From Rhodocyclaceae bacterium (GTDB taxonomy: Bacteria; Pseudomonadota; Gammaproteobacteria; Burkholderiales; Rhodocyclaceae), in the NCBI GenBank assembly GCA_025353195.1, contig JANXRC010000112.1, positions 1-41,262 on the forward strand: a stretch of DNA of 41,262 nucleotides, in the 5' to 3' direction. Within the stretch, counting starts at the first letter, position 1. Each line of letters begins with the position of its first letter. The notes under the pieces were generated by a model. It saw only the letters and a program-made list of their open reading frames with translations. It made no database searches and was not told the DNA's origin. This document shows, one piece after another, positions 33,287-39,220 of this stretch. The translations under genes were made by a program, and so were the position numbers.

Positions 33287-34030
33287 ATGCTTGGCCCAGA
33301 TGGCCCGATGCACCTTGCCATACCAGATATGAATGGTCGAATCGACGCTCCGCCCCCTCTGCTCCTCGATGGCTCGTCCATGGAAGACCGTTGGCGCGCA
33401 ACTCCGAAGGAAAGCCGCTTCATGCTTTCGCTGGGAGTCTCCTGCGCGCTCCATGTGTTCGTTCTGTTTGCGCCGGTGTTCGGCACGGTCGCCCGATCAG
33501 CGCTGCCGTATTCTCAAAGCAGCCAGAAGACGCCATCCAGTCTTTCCGTCAGCTTGCCTCCGTCACACATCGTCACGGCCGAGGACTGGAATCTGTCGGC
33601 GGACAACCCGGTTCCGGCCGAATTATCGGTACCGGAACCGATAACGAACGGCGCGTCGACTCCATCGGGCAACCGGGCGGATGCAAGCGATCTGTTGCCC
33701 ATGCCGGGGGTCGTCTATTACCCGACCAGTTTTCTGACCGTGCGCCCACAGCCAATCGGCGAAGCCGATCTTGATCCGCCACACTTAAGGCCCATTGTTG
33801 CGTCCGGCAAGGTGAGGCTGACAGTCTGGATCAACCCGTTTGGCGAATCTTCCAAGGTTGCGGTGGAAGCCACCGATCTTCCGCAGATTTTCGTTGACGC
33901 CGCGGTCGGGGCATTCGAGCGGCTACGCTTCAAACCCGGCGAACTTCATGGTCTCAAGGTTGGCGTCGTCATGAGAGTCGAGGTCACCTACGACGACGGA
34001 AGGATGATCAAGACAGAAGTGGCGCCGTAG
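33287..34030 (+). CDS. TonB-like energy-transducer-type protein (single TM, divergent C-terminus)
   Basis: 247 aa ORF; MLSLGVSCALHVFVLFAPVF TM; C-terminus SGKVRLTVWINPFGESSKVAVEATDLPQIFVDAAVGAFERLRFKPGELHGLKVGVVMRVEVTY fits a TonB C-terminal fold. Exact start uncertain. Confidence 0.65.
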   Translation: MLGPDGPMHLAIPDMNGRIDAPPPLLLDGSSMEDRWRATPKESRFMLSLGVSCALHVFVLFAPVFGTVARSALPYSQSSQKTPSSLSVSLPPSHIVTAEDWNLSADNPVPAELSVPEPITNGASTPSGNRADASDLLPMPGVVYYPTSFLTVRPQPIGEADLDPPHLRPIVASGKVRLTVWINPFGESSKVAVEATDLPQIFVDAAVGAFERLRFKPGELHGLKVGVVMRVEVTYDDGRMIKTEVAP

Positions 34031-34147: not shown

Positions 34148-35935
34148 ATGCCCCGCCTGCAACGCGACATTCTCCTTGGCTTTGCTCTGATCTGCGCGCT
34201 CGCGATCGGCCTGGCGTCGTCGAACCTGCTGCGCTGGGCCGATCAATCCCTGTATGACGCGCAGACGCGCTGGCTGCGTGCCCATGCGCCATCAGCGCTG
34301 CCCCAGGACGTGGTGGTGATCGGCCTCGATGAGGCCGCCTACGAGTCGATTCTCGAACCTTCCGCCCTTTGGCACAGGCATCTGGGCGACCTTCTCAGCG
34401 GACTGGCCGAAGCCAGACCGGCCGTGGTCGGACTGGCCACGGCGCTGCCGGTGCGCTCCTACGATTTTCTGATCAAGGGCATCGACGCGCCGCTGATCGA
34501 CGGCATCAAGCGACTGCGCGCGGCTGCTCCCCTGGTGGTAGGGCAGCCAATGGGCATTGGCCGCCAGTTGCGACCGATCGCACCCGAACTGCTGGCTGCG
34601 GCTGGCAATGACAGAGTGGCATCGCTGGCCATCTGCGAAGACGCCGACGGCACGGTGAGGCGCGTCTACCAAGCGCGCTGCCTCACCGAGGACAAGCACG
34701 AGCCCTTCGCTCACGCCATGGCCAGGCATCTGGGGCGGGAAGGTACCCGCACCGGCATGATCGATTACAGCGCCGGGGGAGAGATCGAGTACATCCCGTT
34801 CCGCGAGGTGCTCAGCTGGATTCGTCTGGGCGAGACCGATCAGTTGAGAAACCGTGTGCAAGGCCGCGTGGTGGTGGTGGCCAGCCTGCTGCCGACGGAA
34901 ATCCGCTACCGCCTGCCGGTCTCGCTGGCGGCATGGGAGCGCGGCAGCCGCACCGAGCCGGGCGCCGTGGTGCACGTGCAGGCCCTGCGTTCGCTGCTCA
35001 GCCGCGGCCTGATCGAGCGGATATCCGAACCCCTGTCCCTGGTGCTGGCCGGGCTCGGCGCGCTGCTCTGGTTCGGTCGCAACGGCTGGCGCAAGCTGGC
35101 CGCGGTACTGGGCGCGGGTGGCGCAGTGGTGGCGGGCGCCACCTATGCAATCTGGCAGGGTTACTATCTGCATTCCGGGACCCTGCTCGCCATCATTCTG
35201 ATGGCATTTCTGGCGCGCCTGGTCTGGGAGTCCGGGCGCCATTACCGTGAGAAGCAGTTGTTGCGTTCCGCATTCGCCGGGCATGTCAGTCCGCAGGTGA
35301 TGCGCGCCATTCTGGGCGGTGCGCTGCAACCGGATGCGGACGGCGAGCAGTGCAAGGTCACCATCCTGTTTGCCGATATCCGCGGCTTCACCGCACGCAG
35401 CGAGAACTCGACCCCGGAAGCCATGATCCGCCTGCTGAACCGCTATTACGCCGAGGTCTCGGCGGCGATCCACGCCCGCGGCGGCGCCATCGACAAGTTC
35501 ATCGGTGATGGCCTGATGGCTACCTTCGGCGTGCCGCAGCCCCTGCCGGCGCCGCAGCGCAACGCGCTGGAAGCGGCGCAGGACATGCTAGTGCGCGTTG
35601 CGCGACTGAACACCGAACTGGTCGCCGAAGGCCTGGCGCCGCTCGAAATCGGCATCGGCATTCATAGCGGCGAAGTTCTGGCCGGCTATGTGGGTTCGCG
35701 CAAGCGTCGCGATTTCACCGTGATCGGCGATCCGGTCAATACGGCGTCACGCCTGGAGGGCATGACCAAGACGGTAGGCTACCCGGTGGTCTGCTCCCAT
35801 GAAGTGGCGGCTGCCGTGGGCTTTGCCGGCGGACTGGTGGACCTCGGCGTGCAGGACATCAAAGGCCGTTCCGCGCTCCATCTGTGGGGCTGGAATCCGC
35901 CCCTGGCAAAGCGCGTGAAGACGAGGGCGCCTTGA
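34148..35935 (+). CDS. CHASE2-domain adenylate/guanylate cyclase
   Basis: 595 aa; N-terminal CHASE2-like region, TM segments, class III cyclase FADIRGFTARSE...AIDKFIGDGLMATFGVP...GIHSGEVLAGYVGSRKRRDFTVIGDPVNTASRLE. Confidence 0.93.
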   Translation: MPRLQRDILLGFALICALAIGLASSNLLRWADQSLYDAQTRWLRAHAPSALPQDVVVIGLDEAAYESILEPSALWHRHLGDLLSGLAEARPAVVGLATALPVRSYDFLIKGIDAPLIDGIKRLRAAAPLVVGQPMGIGRQLRPIAPELLAAAGNDRVASLAICEDADGTVRRVYQARCLTEDKHEPFAHAMARHLGREGTRTGMIDYSAGGEIEYIPFREVLSWIRLGETDQLRNRVQGRVVVVASLLPTEIRYRLPVSLAAWERGSRTEPGAVVHVQALRSLLSRGLIERISEPLSLVLAGLGALLWFGRNGWRKLAAVLGAGGAVVAGATYAIWQGYYLHSGTLLAIILMAFLARLVWESGRHYREKQLLRSAFAGHVSPQVMRAILGGALQPDADGEQCKVTILFADIRGFTARSENSTPEAMIRLLNRYYAEVSAAIHARGGAIDKFIGDGLMATFGVPQPLPAPQRNALEAAQDMLVRVARLNTELVAEGLAPLEIGIGIHSGEVLAGYVGSRKRRDFTVIGDPVNTASRLEGMTKTVGYPVVCSHEVAAAVGFAGGLVDLGVQDIKGRSALHLWGWNPPLAKRVKTRAP

Positions 35936-36681
35936 ATTCCGTTAATGCATCGCGCTTCTTCGGCTACGCCGCGCTGGCGTGGTTCGCCTCGACGCGCTGG
36001 GACCGGTTACGCGATCCGCAGTTGCGCATCCAGTTTCACCGCCAGATCAACGCTCACGGAATTGCCGCGCTGCCCGTCATCGCCGCGCTGGCAGCGCTGA
36101 CCGGGGCGACGGCGGTAACCCAGGTCACTGCGCTGGCCGGGCAGGACAACGACCTGGCCCAGCGCCTGCTGTTCTTCGGCCTGTTTTTCGAACTGGCACC
36201 CCTGCTCACGGCACTGGTGATGGTGGCTCGCAGCAGTGCCGCCATTGCCTCGGAACTCGCGGTGATGCATCTGTACGACGAATTCACCGCACTGCGCCGC
36301 ATGGGAGTGCCGGCGGCAGACTACCTCCTGCTGCCACGCATTCTCGGCCTGACGCTGGCCTTGCCGGCGGTGACCGTGTGCTTCCAGATCATCGCTGTCG
36401 GCAGCGGCTGGCTGGCTACGGCCCTGCTGCAGAATCAGCCCCTGTCAGAGATCGCCGGGCACTTCTTCGACCTCGCCGATCCGTGGCTGCCGCTTGCCAG
36501 CCTGGCGAAAAGCGCCCTGATGGGCGCGGTCATCGGCATCATCGCCTGCCATCACGGCAGCAGTGCCGCGCGCTCGACGCAGGCAATCTCGACGGCGTCG
36601 ATCCATGCCGTCGGCAACGGGTTGGTCGCAGTGTTCGTCGTGGATGTGACATTCGCCATCGCCGCCTATTTCCTGAAATGA
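35932..36681 (+). CDS. MlaE/YrbE-family ABC permease
   Basis: TTG 35932 overlaps the cyclase stop (TTGA); GLFFELAPLLTALVMVARSSAAIASELAVMHLYDEFTALRRMGV is the MlaE signature. Confidence 0.9.
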   Translation: MNSVNASRFFGYAALAWFASTRWDRLRDPQLRIQFHRQINAHGIAALPVIAALAALTGATAVTQVTALAGQDNDLAQRLLFFGLFFELAPLLTALVMVARSSAAIASELAVMHLYDEFTALRRMGVPAADYLLLPRILGLTLALPAVTVCFQIIAVGSGWLATALLQNQPLSEIAGHFFDLADPWLPLASLAKSALMGAVIGIIACHHGSSAARSTQAISTASIHAVGNGLVAVFVVDVTFAIAAYFLK

Positions 36682-36785
36682 AGCCCGTCGCGCGACCAGG
36701 TCTGCCGCACCGCCTGCCGGCCATCGCCATGGCTCGGGTGCGAAGCCGCGGCGCCGCGCTGCGGACGATCGAGGAAGTACGGTAG
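36678..36785 (+). CDS. Candidate 35-aa basic microprotein between the mlaE-like and mlaF-like genes
   Basis: MKPVARPGLPHRLPAIAMARVRSRGAALRTIEEVR*; ATGA overlap with the permease stop; stop lies 2 nt before ATG 36788. No homology evidence available. Confidence 0.35.
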   Translation: MKPVARPGLPHRLPAIAMARVRSRGAALRTIEEVR

Positions 36786-36787
36786 AC

Positions 36788-37402
36788 ATGTCGCTACTCG
36801 TCCAACTCGAGCAACGCACGCTGGTGCTGACCGGCGATGGCGAGCAGCGCCTGCTGATTCCGCTCGATCAGGGCGGTCGCCATCGCATCGTTGCTCCCGA
36901 TGCCGCGACCATCCAATGCGTCGTCGATGCGCTCGAAACCTGCGCCGGCGTCGGTGTCCTGCCTGCCAGCGGCGGCCTGCTGGGGGCCATGACGGTGGCG
37001 GACAATTTTGCGCTGGCTTTGCGCTACGGCGCCGATCCGCTGGACGATGCCGCCAGCGAATGGCAACACGCCCTGCAACTGGCATTCCAGCTTTGCGGTG
37101 TGCCCGAGGAACGCATCCGCAGCATCGGGCGCGAGCGGCCGATGAGCCTCGAACGGATCGAACGCTGGCTGGTCGGCTTCGTCCGCAACCTGCTGCGCCC
37201 GCCTGAATTGCTGGTGCTCGACCGGATCTTCGGCGGCCTCTCGCGCCGCCAGGCCGAGGCGGTGATCACCCTCGAAGCCGTTTATCATGACGTCCATCCC
37301 TTCCGCCCCACCCTGTTCGTCGATATCGATAGCCATGAACTGCCCGTCATACCGGATTGCATGAATCGCCTGGAACTGGAGGCCCTCGAATGTCCATGCT
37401 GA
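36788..37402 (+). CDS. Degenerate ABC ATPase-like protein in the MlaF position
   Basis: 204 aa; MlaF-like framework (GVLPASGGLLGAMTVADNFALALRYG; PPELLVLDRIFGGLSRRQAEAV) but no Walker A, altered signature and catalytic Glu changed to Arg. Confidence 0.75.
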   Translation: MSLLVQLEQRTLVLTGDGEQRLLIPLDQGGRHRIVAPDAATIQCVVDALETCAGVGVLPASGGLLGAMTVADNFALALRYGADPLDDAASEWQHALQLAFQLCGVPEERIRSIGRERPMSLERIERWLVGFVRNLLRPPELLVLDRIFGGLSRRQAEAVITLEAVYHDVHPFRPTLFVDIDSHELPVIPDCMNRLELEALECPC

Positions 37403-38331
37403 TTGCGCAGGACCGCGAAGCCGAAGCATTGCGCCGCGGCACGCGCCGCTTCGTGCTGTTTGGCCTGCTCGTGGTACTCGCGCTGATCGTCGCCATCCTC
37501 GTGCGCCAGGGCCTGTTCCGCCAGACCGCGTCACTGGGCTTTGTCACCGATTCGGCGCAGGACATCAGCAAGGGGCAGGCGGTGCGGATCGCCGGCTTTC
37601 GCGTCGGCTCGGTGGTCGCCGTGACGCTGCGGCCCAATGGCGAGGTCGAGGTGGGAATGGAAATCGACGCCGACCACTTGCGTTTTGTCACCCGCGATGC
37701 CGTGGTCGAACTGCGCAAGGAGGCGTTGATCGGCGCCGCGGTGCTCGAGATCGTGCCCGGCCCCGATCGCACCCGGCTCGCTGCCGACCAGGCGCGACTG
37801 GCCTTCACGCGCGGCGACAGCCTGACCGCCATGGCCGGCCAGCTGCGCGAACAGATCGCGCCGATCCTGAAGGACGTCAAGACCATCACCGGCACGCTGG
37901 CCGACGCCCAAAAGGGGCTGCCCGCGACGCTCGACCAGGTGCGTGAAACCACCGGCGCGCTGCACACGCTGCTCGATACCGGCAACCGCCAGGTTGCAGG
38001 TGTTGCCGCTTCCGCCACCCGCGTGCTGGGCAAGGCAGAGGAAAATCTTTCCCAACTCGCTATCACGCTGGAGATCACCAACAGCCGCCTGCCACCCCTG
38101 CTCGACCGTAGCCAGCGCATTGTCGATCACATGGAAAAGATCACCGCGGACGCCGAAACCACCCTGCCGACAGCCTTGCGCGATGGCGGCGCAGCGGCAG
38201 CCGATGTGCGCGAGATCGTCGCCGGTGCCAAGACGGCCTGGCCGATCCGCAACCTGATTGACGCCCCGGCGCCGGTCACGCTCAAGGCAGACAGCGATCC
38301 GCGCGGCGAGGGTGCACATGTCGCGCCCTGA
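37390..38331 (+). CDS. MlaD/MCE-domain substrate-binding protein
   Basis: MSMLIAQDREAEALRRGTRRFVLFGLLVVLALIVAILVRQGLF TM, then MCE pattern GFVTDSAQDISKGQAVRIAGFRVGSVVAVTL; overlaps the upstream gene. Confidence 0.9.
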   Translation: MSMLIAQDREAEALRRGTRRFVLFGLLVVLALIVAILVRQGLFRQTASLGFVTDSAQDISKGQAVRIAGFRVGSVVAVTLRPNGEVEVGMEIDADHLRFVTRDAVVELRKEALIGAAVLEIVPGPDRTRLAADQARLAFTRGDSLTAMAGQLREQIAPILKDVKTITGTLADAQKGLPATLDQVRETTGALHTLLDTGNRQVAGVAASATRVLGKAEENLSQLAITLEITNSRLPPLLDRSQRIVDHMEKITADAETTLPTALRDGGAAAADVREIVAGAKTAWPIRNLIDAPAPVTLKADSDPRGEGAHVAP

Positions 38332-39220
38332 GTTCTTCCCGCGACGGCCGTCGCTTTGCGCTGCGCTGCTGGCGTCGTTGCTGCTCGCCGCCTGCGCTGC
38401 GGCGCCAAAGGCCGGCGCCCCGCAGTTGCGCAAGCAGGCGCAGGAAGCAGAGGCGGATGGCGCACGGCGCTATGCGCGCGGCGACTACACGGGAGCGGCG
38501 CGCAGCTTCGGCGCGGCGCGGCAGTTGCAGCAAAGTTTTGACGATCCCGCCGCCGCCGGACGAAACGCCCTGAATCAGGCTCGTGCCGAACTGGCACAGG
38601 GCCAGGCGGAAGCGGCGCTGAATCGCGCGCAGCGCATCGCCCAGCCGGAACTCGCTCTCGAAGCCATGCTGCTGCAGGCGCAGGCGAACCTGGCACTGGG
38701 ACGGCTCGCCACGGCACAGGCGATCCTCGCCGCTGCGGCAACGGCCTGCGCGGCGAACTGCCCGCAGCTCGCCAGCCTGCATTTGTTGCAGGCGCGTGCC
38801 GCGCTCGCCGACAAGCACGCGGCGGACGCATTGGCGCACGCCGAAGCGGCCTTGAAGCTACTGCAGGATACGGACGAAGCGGCCGAGACGGGCAACGCCT
38901 GGCGGCTCATCGCCGCCGCGCGGCTCGCCAGCGGTGATGCCGCCAACGCCCTGCCCGCGGCGAGCGCCGCGCTCGAAATCGACCGCCGGCTGGCGCTGCC
39001 GGAAAAGATCGGCCGCGACTGGCTGTTGATCGGCGACATCCGGAAGAAAGTCGGCGCTGGGGCTCTGCACGCTCGGGACTCCGCTTCGCGGGCGAGCGAC
39101 ACGGTGGCAGCCTACCAGCGCGCGCTCGACGTGGCCACCGCAGCCGGTCTCGGCGATGTCGCCGGGAGCGCGACGCAAGCCCTGACCCAGGCCGGCCAGG
39201 GCACGGCCGCTGCCAGATAA
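38318..39220 (+). CDS. Putative TPR-like lipoprotein of the Mla-like operon
   Basis: Lipobox LLASLLLAAC; Ala-rich helical repeats (ARRYARGDYTGAARSFGAA...); start overlaps the MCE gene end. Confidence 0.75.
   Translation: MSRPEFFPRRPSLCAALLASLLLAACAAAPKAGAPQLRKQAQEAEADGARRYARGDYTGAARSFGAARQLQQSFDDPAAAGRNALNQARAELAQGQAEAALNRAQRIAQPELALEAMLLQAQANLALGRLATAQAILAAAATACAANCPQLASLHLLQARAALADKHAADALAHAEAALKLLQDTDEAAETGNAWRLIAAARLASGDAANALPAASAALEIDRRLALPEKIGRDWLLIGDIRKKVGAGALHARDSASRASDTVAAYQRALDVATAAGLGDVAGSATQALTQAGQGTAAAR

Follow-up and report, generated by a model that had tools for sequence, protein, structure and literature searches.

ABC transporters are defined by their ATP-driven nucleotide-binding domains (NBDs). 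The locus described here raises the question of how such a transporter could operate when the only NBD encoded in its operon lacks intact ATPase motifs, and whether a gene in this state is a working component or a decaying one. The gene lies at positions 36788-37402 of the window (the whole stretch of 41,262 nucleotides that was analysed), where an initial annotation had read an MlaF-like protein with all its catalytic motifs eroded, and had proposed that the operon either uses an ATPase in trans or works without ATP hydrolysis.

Organization of the locus

The genes that make up the locus are the following:

34148-35935, + strand: CHASE2 protein with a class III adenylate/guanylate cyclase domain, 595 aa (Pfam CHASE2 6.5e-19, Guanylate_cyc 3.7e-24)
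35932-36681, + strand: MlaE-type permease of a distinct subfamily, 249 aa, TTG start (Pfam MlaE 5.3e-41)
36678-36785, + strand: 35-codon scar ORF, recognized by comparison with the sister species G002 (L052 7558-10919)
36788-37402, + strand: degenerate ABC nucleotide-binding domain (pseudo-NBD), 204 aa, ATG start
37390-38331, + strand: MCE (MlaD-type) protein, 313 aa (Pfam MlaD 7.2e-13, NCBIfam MCE family 2.5e-15)
38318-39220, + strand: lipoprotein with an LLAAC lipobox and TPR-like repeats, 300 aa (weak TPR_12 match, E 0.011)

The stop of the cyclase gene overlaps the start of the MlaE gene, and the same holds for the pseudo-NBD and MCE genes and for the MCE and lipoprotein genes, which suggests that the five genes from cyclase to lipoprotein form a single operon. 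The permease passes the PF02405 cut-off with 141 against 22.5 bits and the MCE protein, in which a single MCE domain is followed by a long helical C-terminal part, passes that of PF02470 with 49 against 25.1 bits. The initial description of the neighbors as intact holds, with the small correction that the lipoprotein is of a TPR type with no Pfam match over threshold.

The scar ORF fuses the first codons of a CHASE2 gene to the last codons of a caspase (C14)-DUF4384 gene. Both genes are present in G002, where they separate MlaE from the pseudo-NBD, and the ORF is the remnant of a deletion. Upstream of the cyclase, at 33287-34030, lies a gene for a TonB C-terminal-domain protein; a single-sequence model search with the window's protein did not detect it at any of the relatives' loci examined, and it was for this reason set aside as an energy source.

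The pseudo-NBD is an ABC NBD without its catalytic motifs

The open reading frame is present as first described, and an alignment with 7 canonical MlaF-type NBDs, from which we took the motif columns and whose C-terminal third is uncertain, bore out every one of the initial motif readings. The canonical P-loop block GGSGSGKTT is replaced by APDAATIQC, so that the Walker A pattern GxxGxGK[ST] is absent; the Q-loop glutamine is an alanine; the signature L-S-G-G-M aligns with L-E-R-I-E (within PMSLERIERW); and the switch histidine is an isoleucine. In Walker B, LLLLDEP has become LLVLDRI, with the catalytic glutamate changed to arginine and the aspartate retained as the only residue left of the catalytic set. 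Furthermore, about 27 residues after Walker A, corresponding to the strands that follow the P-loop in MlaF, are deleted, and the protein ends soon after the switch region, without the C-terminal handshake extension of MlaF.

Despite this erosion, several lines of evidence link the protein to the ABC superfamily. Pfam gave no match in its 204 residues and NCBIfam only weak FtsE/LptB matches far below the cut-offs. A PDB search with a profile of 12 pseudo-NBD homologues recovered FtsE (6.4e-6) and LptB (3.2e-5), along with LolD, MlaF and other NBDs, and a profile-profile comparison (hhalign) with six intact MlaF-type NBDs gave 98.6% probability (E 5e-16). The AlphaFold model (pLDDT 80.6, pTM 0.78) matched MlaF (6xbd_I, E 2.7e-7) and mycobacterial MceG (8fed, 7.7e-7) in foldseek searches, in agreement with the MlaF-like scaffold originally proposed, and one relative (L129) clears the Pfam ABC_tran cut-off with 30.7 against 25 bits. 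In both ancestry and fold the 204-residue protein is an ABC NBD; chance homology of a GC-rich frame is ruled out by the profile, fold and synteny evidence.

Judged by its residues, we conclude that the pseudo-NBD should neither bind nor hydrolyze ATP. In an ABC NBD dimer the composite ATP site is formed jointly by Walker A and the signature. Since both are lost, a normal composite site would not be possible in a homodimer of the pseudo-NBD or in a heterodimer with an intact NBD.

Conservation and selection within the genus

The pseudo-NBD was found in 26 of 31 genomes of the genus, at 51-84% identity to the window's copy. All copies share the same degeneration and none has an internal stop, one of them (L033) being cut by a contig end. 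We looked for intact homologues at the locus in sister strains, and for neutral decay, as the findings that would speak against a conserved pseudo-NBD: none of the 25 same-genus homologues besides the window's own is intact, and dN/dS for the twelve closest pairs is 0.05-0.39, well below 1. These values are similar to those of the neighboring genes in their own closest pairs (MlaE 0.09-0.25, MCE 0.11-0.42). Selection was read from close pairs, and distant pairs were not relied on because pS is compressed at the local GC content; one more distant pseudo-NBD pair, in which dS is compressed, reaches 0.76. The pseudo-NBD is under purifying selection in the genus. In the five genomes without it (four at most 90% complete, and G012 97% complete) no MlaE of the cassette's subfamily was found either, and the cassette thus seems to be absent from them as a whole unit.

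A widespread subfamily with graded erosion

An order-wide profile search of 399 sampled genomes yielded strong pseudo-NBD matches in 31, separated from the background of ordinary NBDs: 11 at E 1e-50 or better and 20 at 7e-27 to 1e-18, with the next at 6e-17. The strong matches fall in families f1, f5, f15, f21, f24, f33 and f51. Besides that of the genus, six families of the order were found to carry the cassette, as were three among the Gammaproteobacteria. Synteny was read from 1.5-kb flanks, or from larger regions for some loci where these were too short. All 30 order-level homologues inspected are degenerate and adjoin MlaE, MCE and TPR lipoprotein genes, the TPR lipoprotein being present in nearly all cassettes. 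The three gammaproteobacterial families add four more such loci, of which one is cut by contig ends. The initial annotation had remarked that it would be unusual for an MCE transporter to have a conserved pseudo-NBD, and conserved it is, within the genus and across many families.

The permeases of these cassettes are likewise distinct. Against a model of their subfamily they score 1e-77 or better, as against 1e-38 to 1e-46 for the three canonical MlaE proteins of the window's genome. A search with this subfamily detected seven sister loci, six in the class and one elsewhere in the phylum, whose NBDs are less eroded than those of the cassettes. The seven canonical NBDs all have the Q-loop glutamine, both signature glycines, the catalytic glutamate and the Walker A lysine. 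In the sister loci the Q-loop glutamine and the pair of signature glycines are gone throughout (0/7 each), with the Walker A lysine present in 6/7 and the catalytic glutamate and switch histidine in 3/7 each. L144, L148 and L152 are intermediates of this kind in which both Walker motifs are intact. The same two features are missing from all 28 cassette NBDs, of which five retain the Walker A lysine, one the catalytic glutamate and three the switch histidine. One gammaproteobacterial NBD (L127 2737-3399, genome G657) keeps the Walker B DE and has a near-P-loop, GVSDGSTS, with the lysine replaced by serine; by its residues it is an intermediate of the erosion series.

In a tree of NBDs built without the motif columns, all 35 degenerate and intermediate NBDs lie opposite the canonical ones (support 100/100), a split that could possibly reflect long-branch attraction because dead NBDs evolve fast. 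The 24 betaproteobacterial pseudo-NBDs form one group (99/99) in the same tree. The permease tree places 33 degenerate and intermediate rows on one side of a branch with support of 89/77, which is not firm. L151, found on a different contig of the genome that encodes the L127 pseudo-NBD, is counted there as the permease of that cassette; with L151 counted as canonical, the tree seems to reject one clade for the degenerate and intermediate loci (AU p 6e-5). The simplest reading, with an order of events that we infer, is one early loss of the Q-loop and signature followed by repeated loss of the other motifs. What had been noted from the window did not extend to this: the entire cassette forms a subfamily of its own, widespread and eroded in graded steps.

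What the pseudo-NBD retains

Within the 24 betaproteobacterial pseudo-NBDs the Q-loop/helical block is the most conserved, at 2.91 bits per column (canonical 3.34), and the Walker A block stands at 1.73 bits (canonical 3.40). Where canonical NBDs are nearly invariant, pseudo-NBDs keep on average 18% of motif cells and 40% of the others. The canonical residues that survive are mostly non-catalytic, among them the arginine after the signature (100%) and an asparagine of the helical block (96%). In ABC transporters the coupling helix of the transmembrane domain is received by a cleft in the NBD, which changes as the helical subdomain rotates (PMC7367683), and it is the coupling helix of MlaE that mediates contact with MlaF (PMC7790496). 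Conservation in the pseudo-NBD has shifted to the Q-loop/helical block, the region that forms the permease cleft in MlaF.

The permease offers the matching element. Its AF2 model (pLDDT 91.5; TM-score 0.88 to MlaE 6xbd) places a short helix, residues 117-123, after the second long helix and before the third, and this segment is only slightly more conserved than the permease average (2.80 vs 2.57 bits). By the model, the window's permease keeps its coupling helix. The conserved interface block suggests that the pseudo-NBD would bind MlaE, and its retained job is likely to be holding or gating the permease.

Could an ATPase act in trans?

The initial annotation had called for a search for an orphan MlaF-like ATPase, and one exists: a paralogue at G000:C4:13267-14073 (L176) in the window's genome, with no MlaE beside it and with Walker A, LSGGM and DEP intact, the switch histidine being a tyrosine. 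It is 37% identical to the NBD at C131, one of three operon-borne intact MlaF-type NBDs of this genome (C21, Mla; C81, Mpc-like; C131), each of which adjoins its own MlaE. PqiA/PqiB/PqiC-like genes were also observed, at G000:C67:6000-12000 (L055), bringing the MCE loci of the organism to five in total.

An intact MlaF-type ATPase from elsewhere in the genome might then power the permease, leaving the pseudo-NBD an accessory or regulatory part. Besides the four candidates, the idea has a precedent for sharing in MceG, which serves both Mce1 and Mce4 of Mycobacterium tuberculosis (PMC9947336). The co-occurrence that the idea would lead one to expect is not seen, however. The orphan is present in 29 of the 31 genomes; four of these 29 yielded no cassette (G003, G012, G020 and G029, of which only G012 is 97% complete), and it is missing from the 99%-complete G016, which has the cassette. 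Its presence does not track the cassette in the genus, and as a trans partner it is possible but unsupported. Moreover, given that the pseudo-NBD keeps the part expected at the MlaE coupling site, any intact NBD would first need to dislodge the pseudo-NBD, and the degeneration is spread over many families, the orphan search having covered the 31 genomes of the genus. We therefore regard powering in trans as unlikely, albeit the best placed of the alternatives.

The CHASE2 cyclase and other roles for the pseudo-NBD

The cyclase adjoins MlaE across the genus and at L051 and L138, and outside the genus it is part of the cassette in a single genus of family f24. Among the other cassettes whose flanks were examined, none had it, which rules it out as a universal partner of the pseudo-NBD. 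The gene order at L051 (7400-12340) is NBD-MCE-lipoprotein-cyclase-MlaE, as against cyclase-MlaE-NBD-MCE-lipoprotein in the window (34148-39220); that cyclase and cassette stay together despite this change speaks for a genuine partnership in these two genera, where the cyclase is a lineage-specific addition to the cassette. The open-access literature searched held nothing relevant on a link between CHASE2 and MlaE.

This synteny could be taken to mean that the pseudo-NBD has left transport altogether to become a regulator or assembly chaperone, as a stabilizer of MlaE or a link to the cyclase signal, and the cytoplasmic subunits MlaB and MceG do govern the stability of their complexes (PMC7367683, PMC9947336). 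Yet the restricted occurrence of the cyclase and the synteny of the pseudo-NBD with MlaE and MCE genes make such a role improbable. Still less probable is a remodelled site that binds a ligand other than ATP, such as a cyclic nucleotide, and thereby gates MlaE: a cyclase is encoded in the same operon, and a conserved block, GGRHR.V..D, surrounds the P-loop position in the pseudo-NBDs of the genus, but this block shows no conservation outside the genus, there is no known ligand-binding motif, and the cyclase was detected in only two genera. Neutral decay of a dying gene, which would equally be expected to remove all catalytic motifs, can be dismissed together with assembly or sequencing error, given the open frames and shared degeneration in 26 of 31 genomes, the low dN/dS of the closest pairs, the spread over many families and the joint absence of pseudo-NBD and subfamily MlaE elsewhere in the genus.

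Comparison with known systems

The window's operon resembles MlaFEDB of E. coli in the fold of its permease, its MCE protein, the fold of its NBD and the coupling helix. It differs in that the NBD has neither functional ATP motifs nor the handshake extension, the two features that mark MlaF equivalogs, and also in gene order, in the TPR lipoprotein and in having no MlaB gene. Brucella Mpc, with a STAS-permease (MpcE), an ATPase (MpcF), a long MpcD and a lipoprotein, and with its ABC part including the ATPase well conserved (PMC12436622), shares the set of four genes for permease, NBD, long MCE protein and lipoprotein; unlike it, the window's operon combines a permease lacking a STAS domain with a dead NBD and a lipoprotein of the TPR type. 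A locus similar to Mpc, with intact motifs, is present at C81 of the window's genome. PqiA and LetA have no ATPase domain (PMC12436622), and by analogy the cassette may be a further candidate for MCE lipid transport without ATPase activity, but LetAB and PqiABC have LetA or PqiA rather than MlaE as the inner-membrane part and no remnant of an NBD.

The mycobacterial Mce1 and Mce4 systems have an MlaE-like permease, to which the window's matches in fold (8fed), and an ATPase, MceG, that is encoded outside the operon and works in trans. We know of no in-operon pseudo-NBD in these systems. Unlike the pseudo-NBD, MceG has intact ATPase motifs, and both transport and stability depend on its Walker B: the Walker B mutants show strongly reduced fatty-acid import and destabilized Mce1 and Mce4 (PMC9947336). 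ATP-free work is hence not a given for MlaE-type permeases.

Loss of catalytic residues under selection is also seen in heterodimeric ABC exporters such as MRP1 and PatAB, in which a single site of the pair is degenerate and ATP is still turned over. In the cassette, by contrast, Walker A, the Q-loop, the signature and the catalytic glutamate are lost together from the only NBD of the operon. A dead in-operon NBD is found in none of Mpc, LetAB/PqiABC and Mce1/Mce4-MceG as compared here, and no prior description of a pseudo-NBD in MCE systems was found in the open-access literature searched.

A proposed transporter without a working motor of its own

The reading that we favor, at a probability of roughly 0.64, is that an MCE transporter not powered by ATP hydrolysis of its own keeps the catalytically dead NBD in a structural or gating role. 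Since selection maintains the dead motor in many related species, this type of transporter probably works without hydrolyzing ATP itself. One counterpoint is the orphan MlaF paralogue, which in principle could act in trans in the 29 genomes that have it.

Under the favored reading the pseudo-NBD descends from the ATPase subunit of an MCE lipid transporter, an ABC protein of the MlaF type. A dimer of the pseudo-NBD would now most likely use the coupling helices to cap the dimeric MlaE permease on its cytoplasmic face; the structural models are of monomers. Lipid would move between the inner membrane and the envelope through an MCE hexamer and the lipoprotein, with no ATP hydrolyzed at the complex's own NBD. 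Such movement could be passive, down a gradient, as may hold for the ATPase-free LetAB and PqiABC, or gated by another signal, for which the co-operonic CHASE2 cyclase is a faint candidate in the genus. The fuller scenario, to which we give somewhat less than even odds, is that an MlaE-type subfamily of Beta- and Gammaproteobacteria lost the use of ATP stepwise, at the Q-loop and signature and then at Walker B and Walker A, and became an ATP-independent lipid conduit with a dead NBD dimer as its structural gate, which some genera wired to a CHASE2 cyclase.

Annotation with MlaF profiles would miss such pseudo-NBD systems. A conserved MCE lineage whose sole in-operon NBD is dead, together with its surviving intermediates, offers a natural dissection of the non-hydrolytic roles of NBDs, and bears directly on whether ATP is required at all for lipid transfer by MlaE/MCE systems, or whether transfer can proceed in its absence, as in LetAB and PqiABC with their lack of an ATPase domain.
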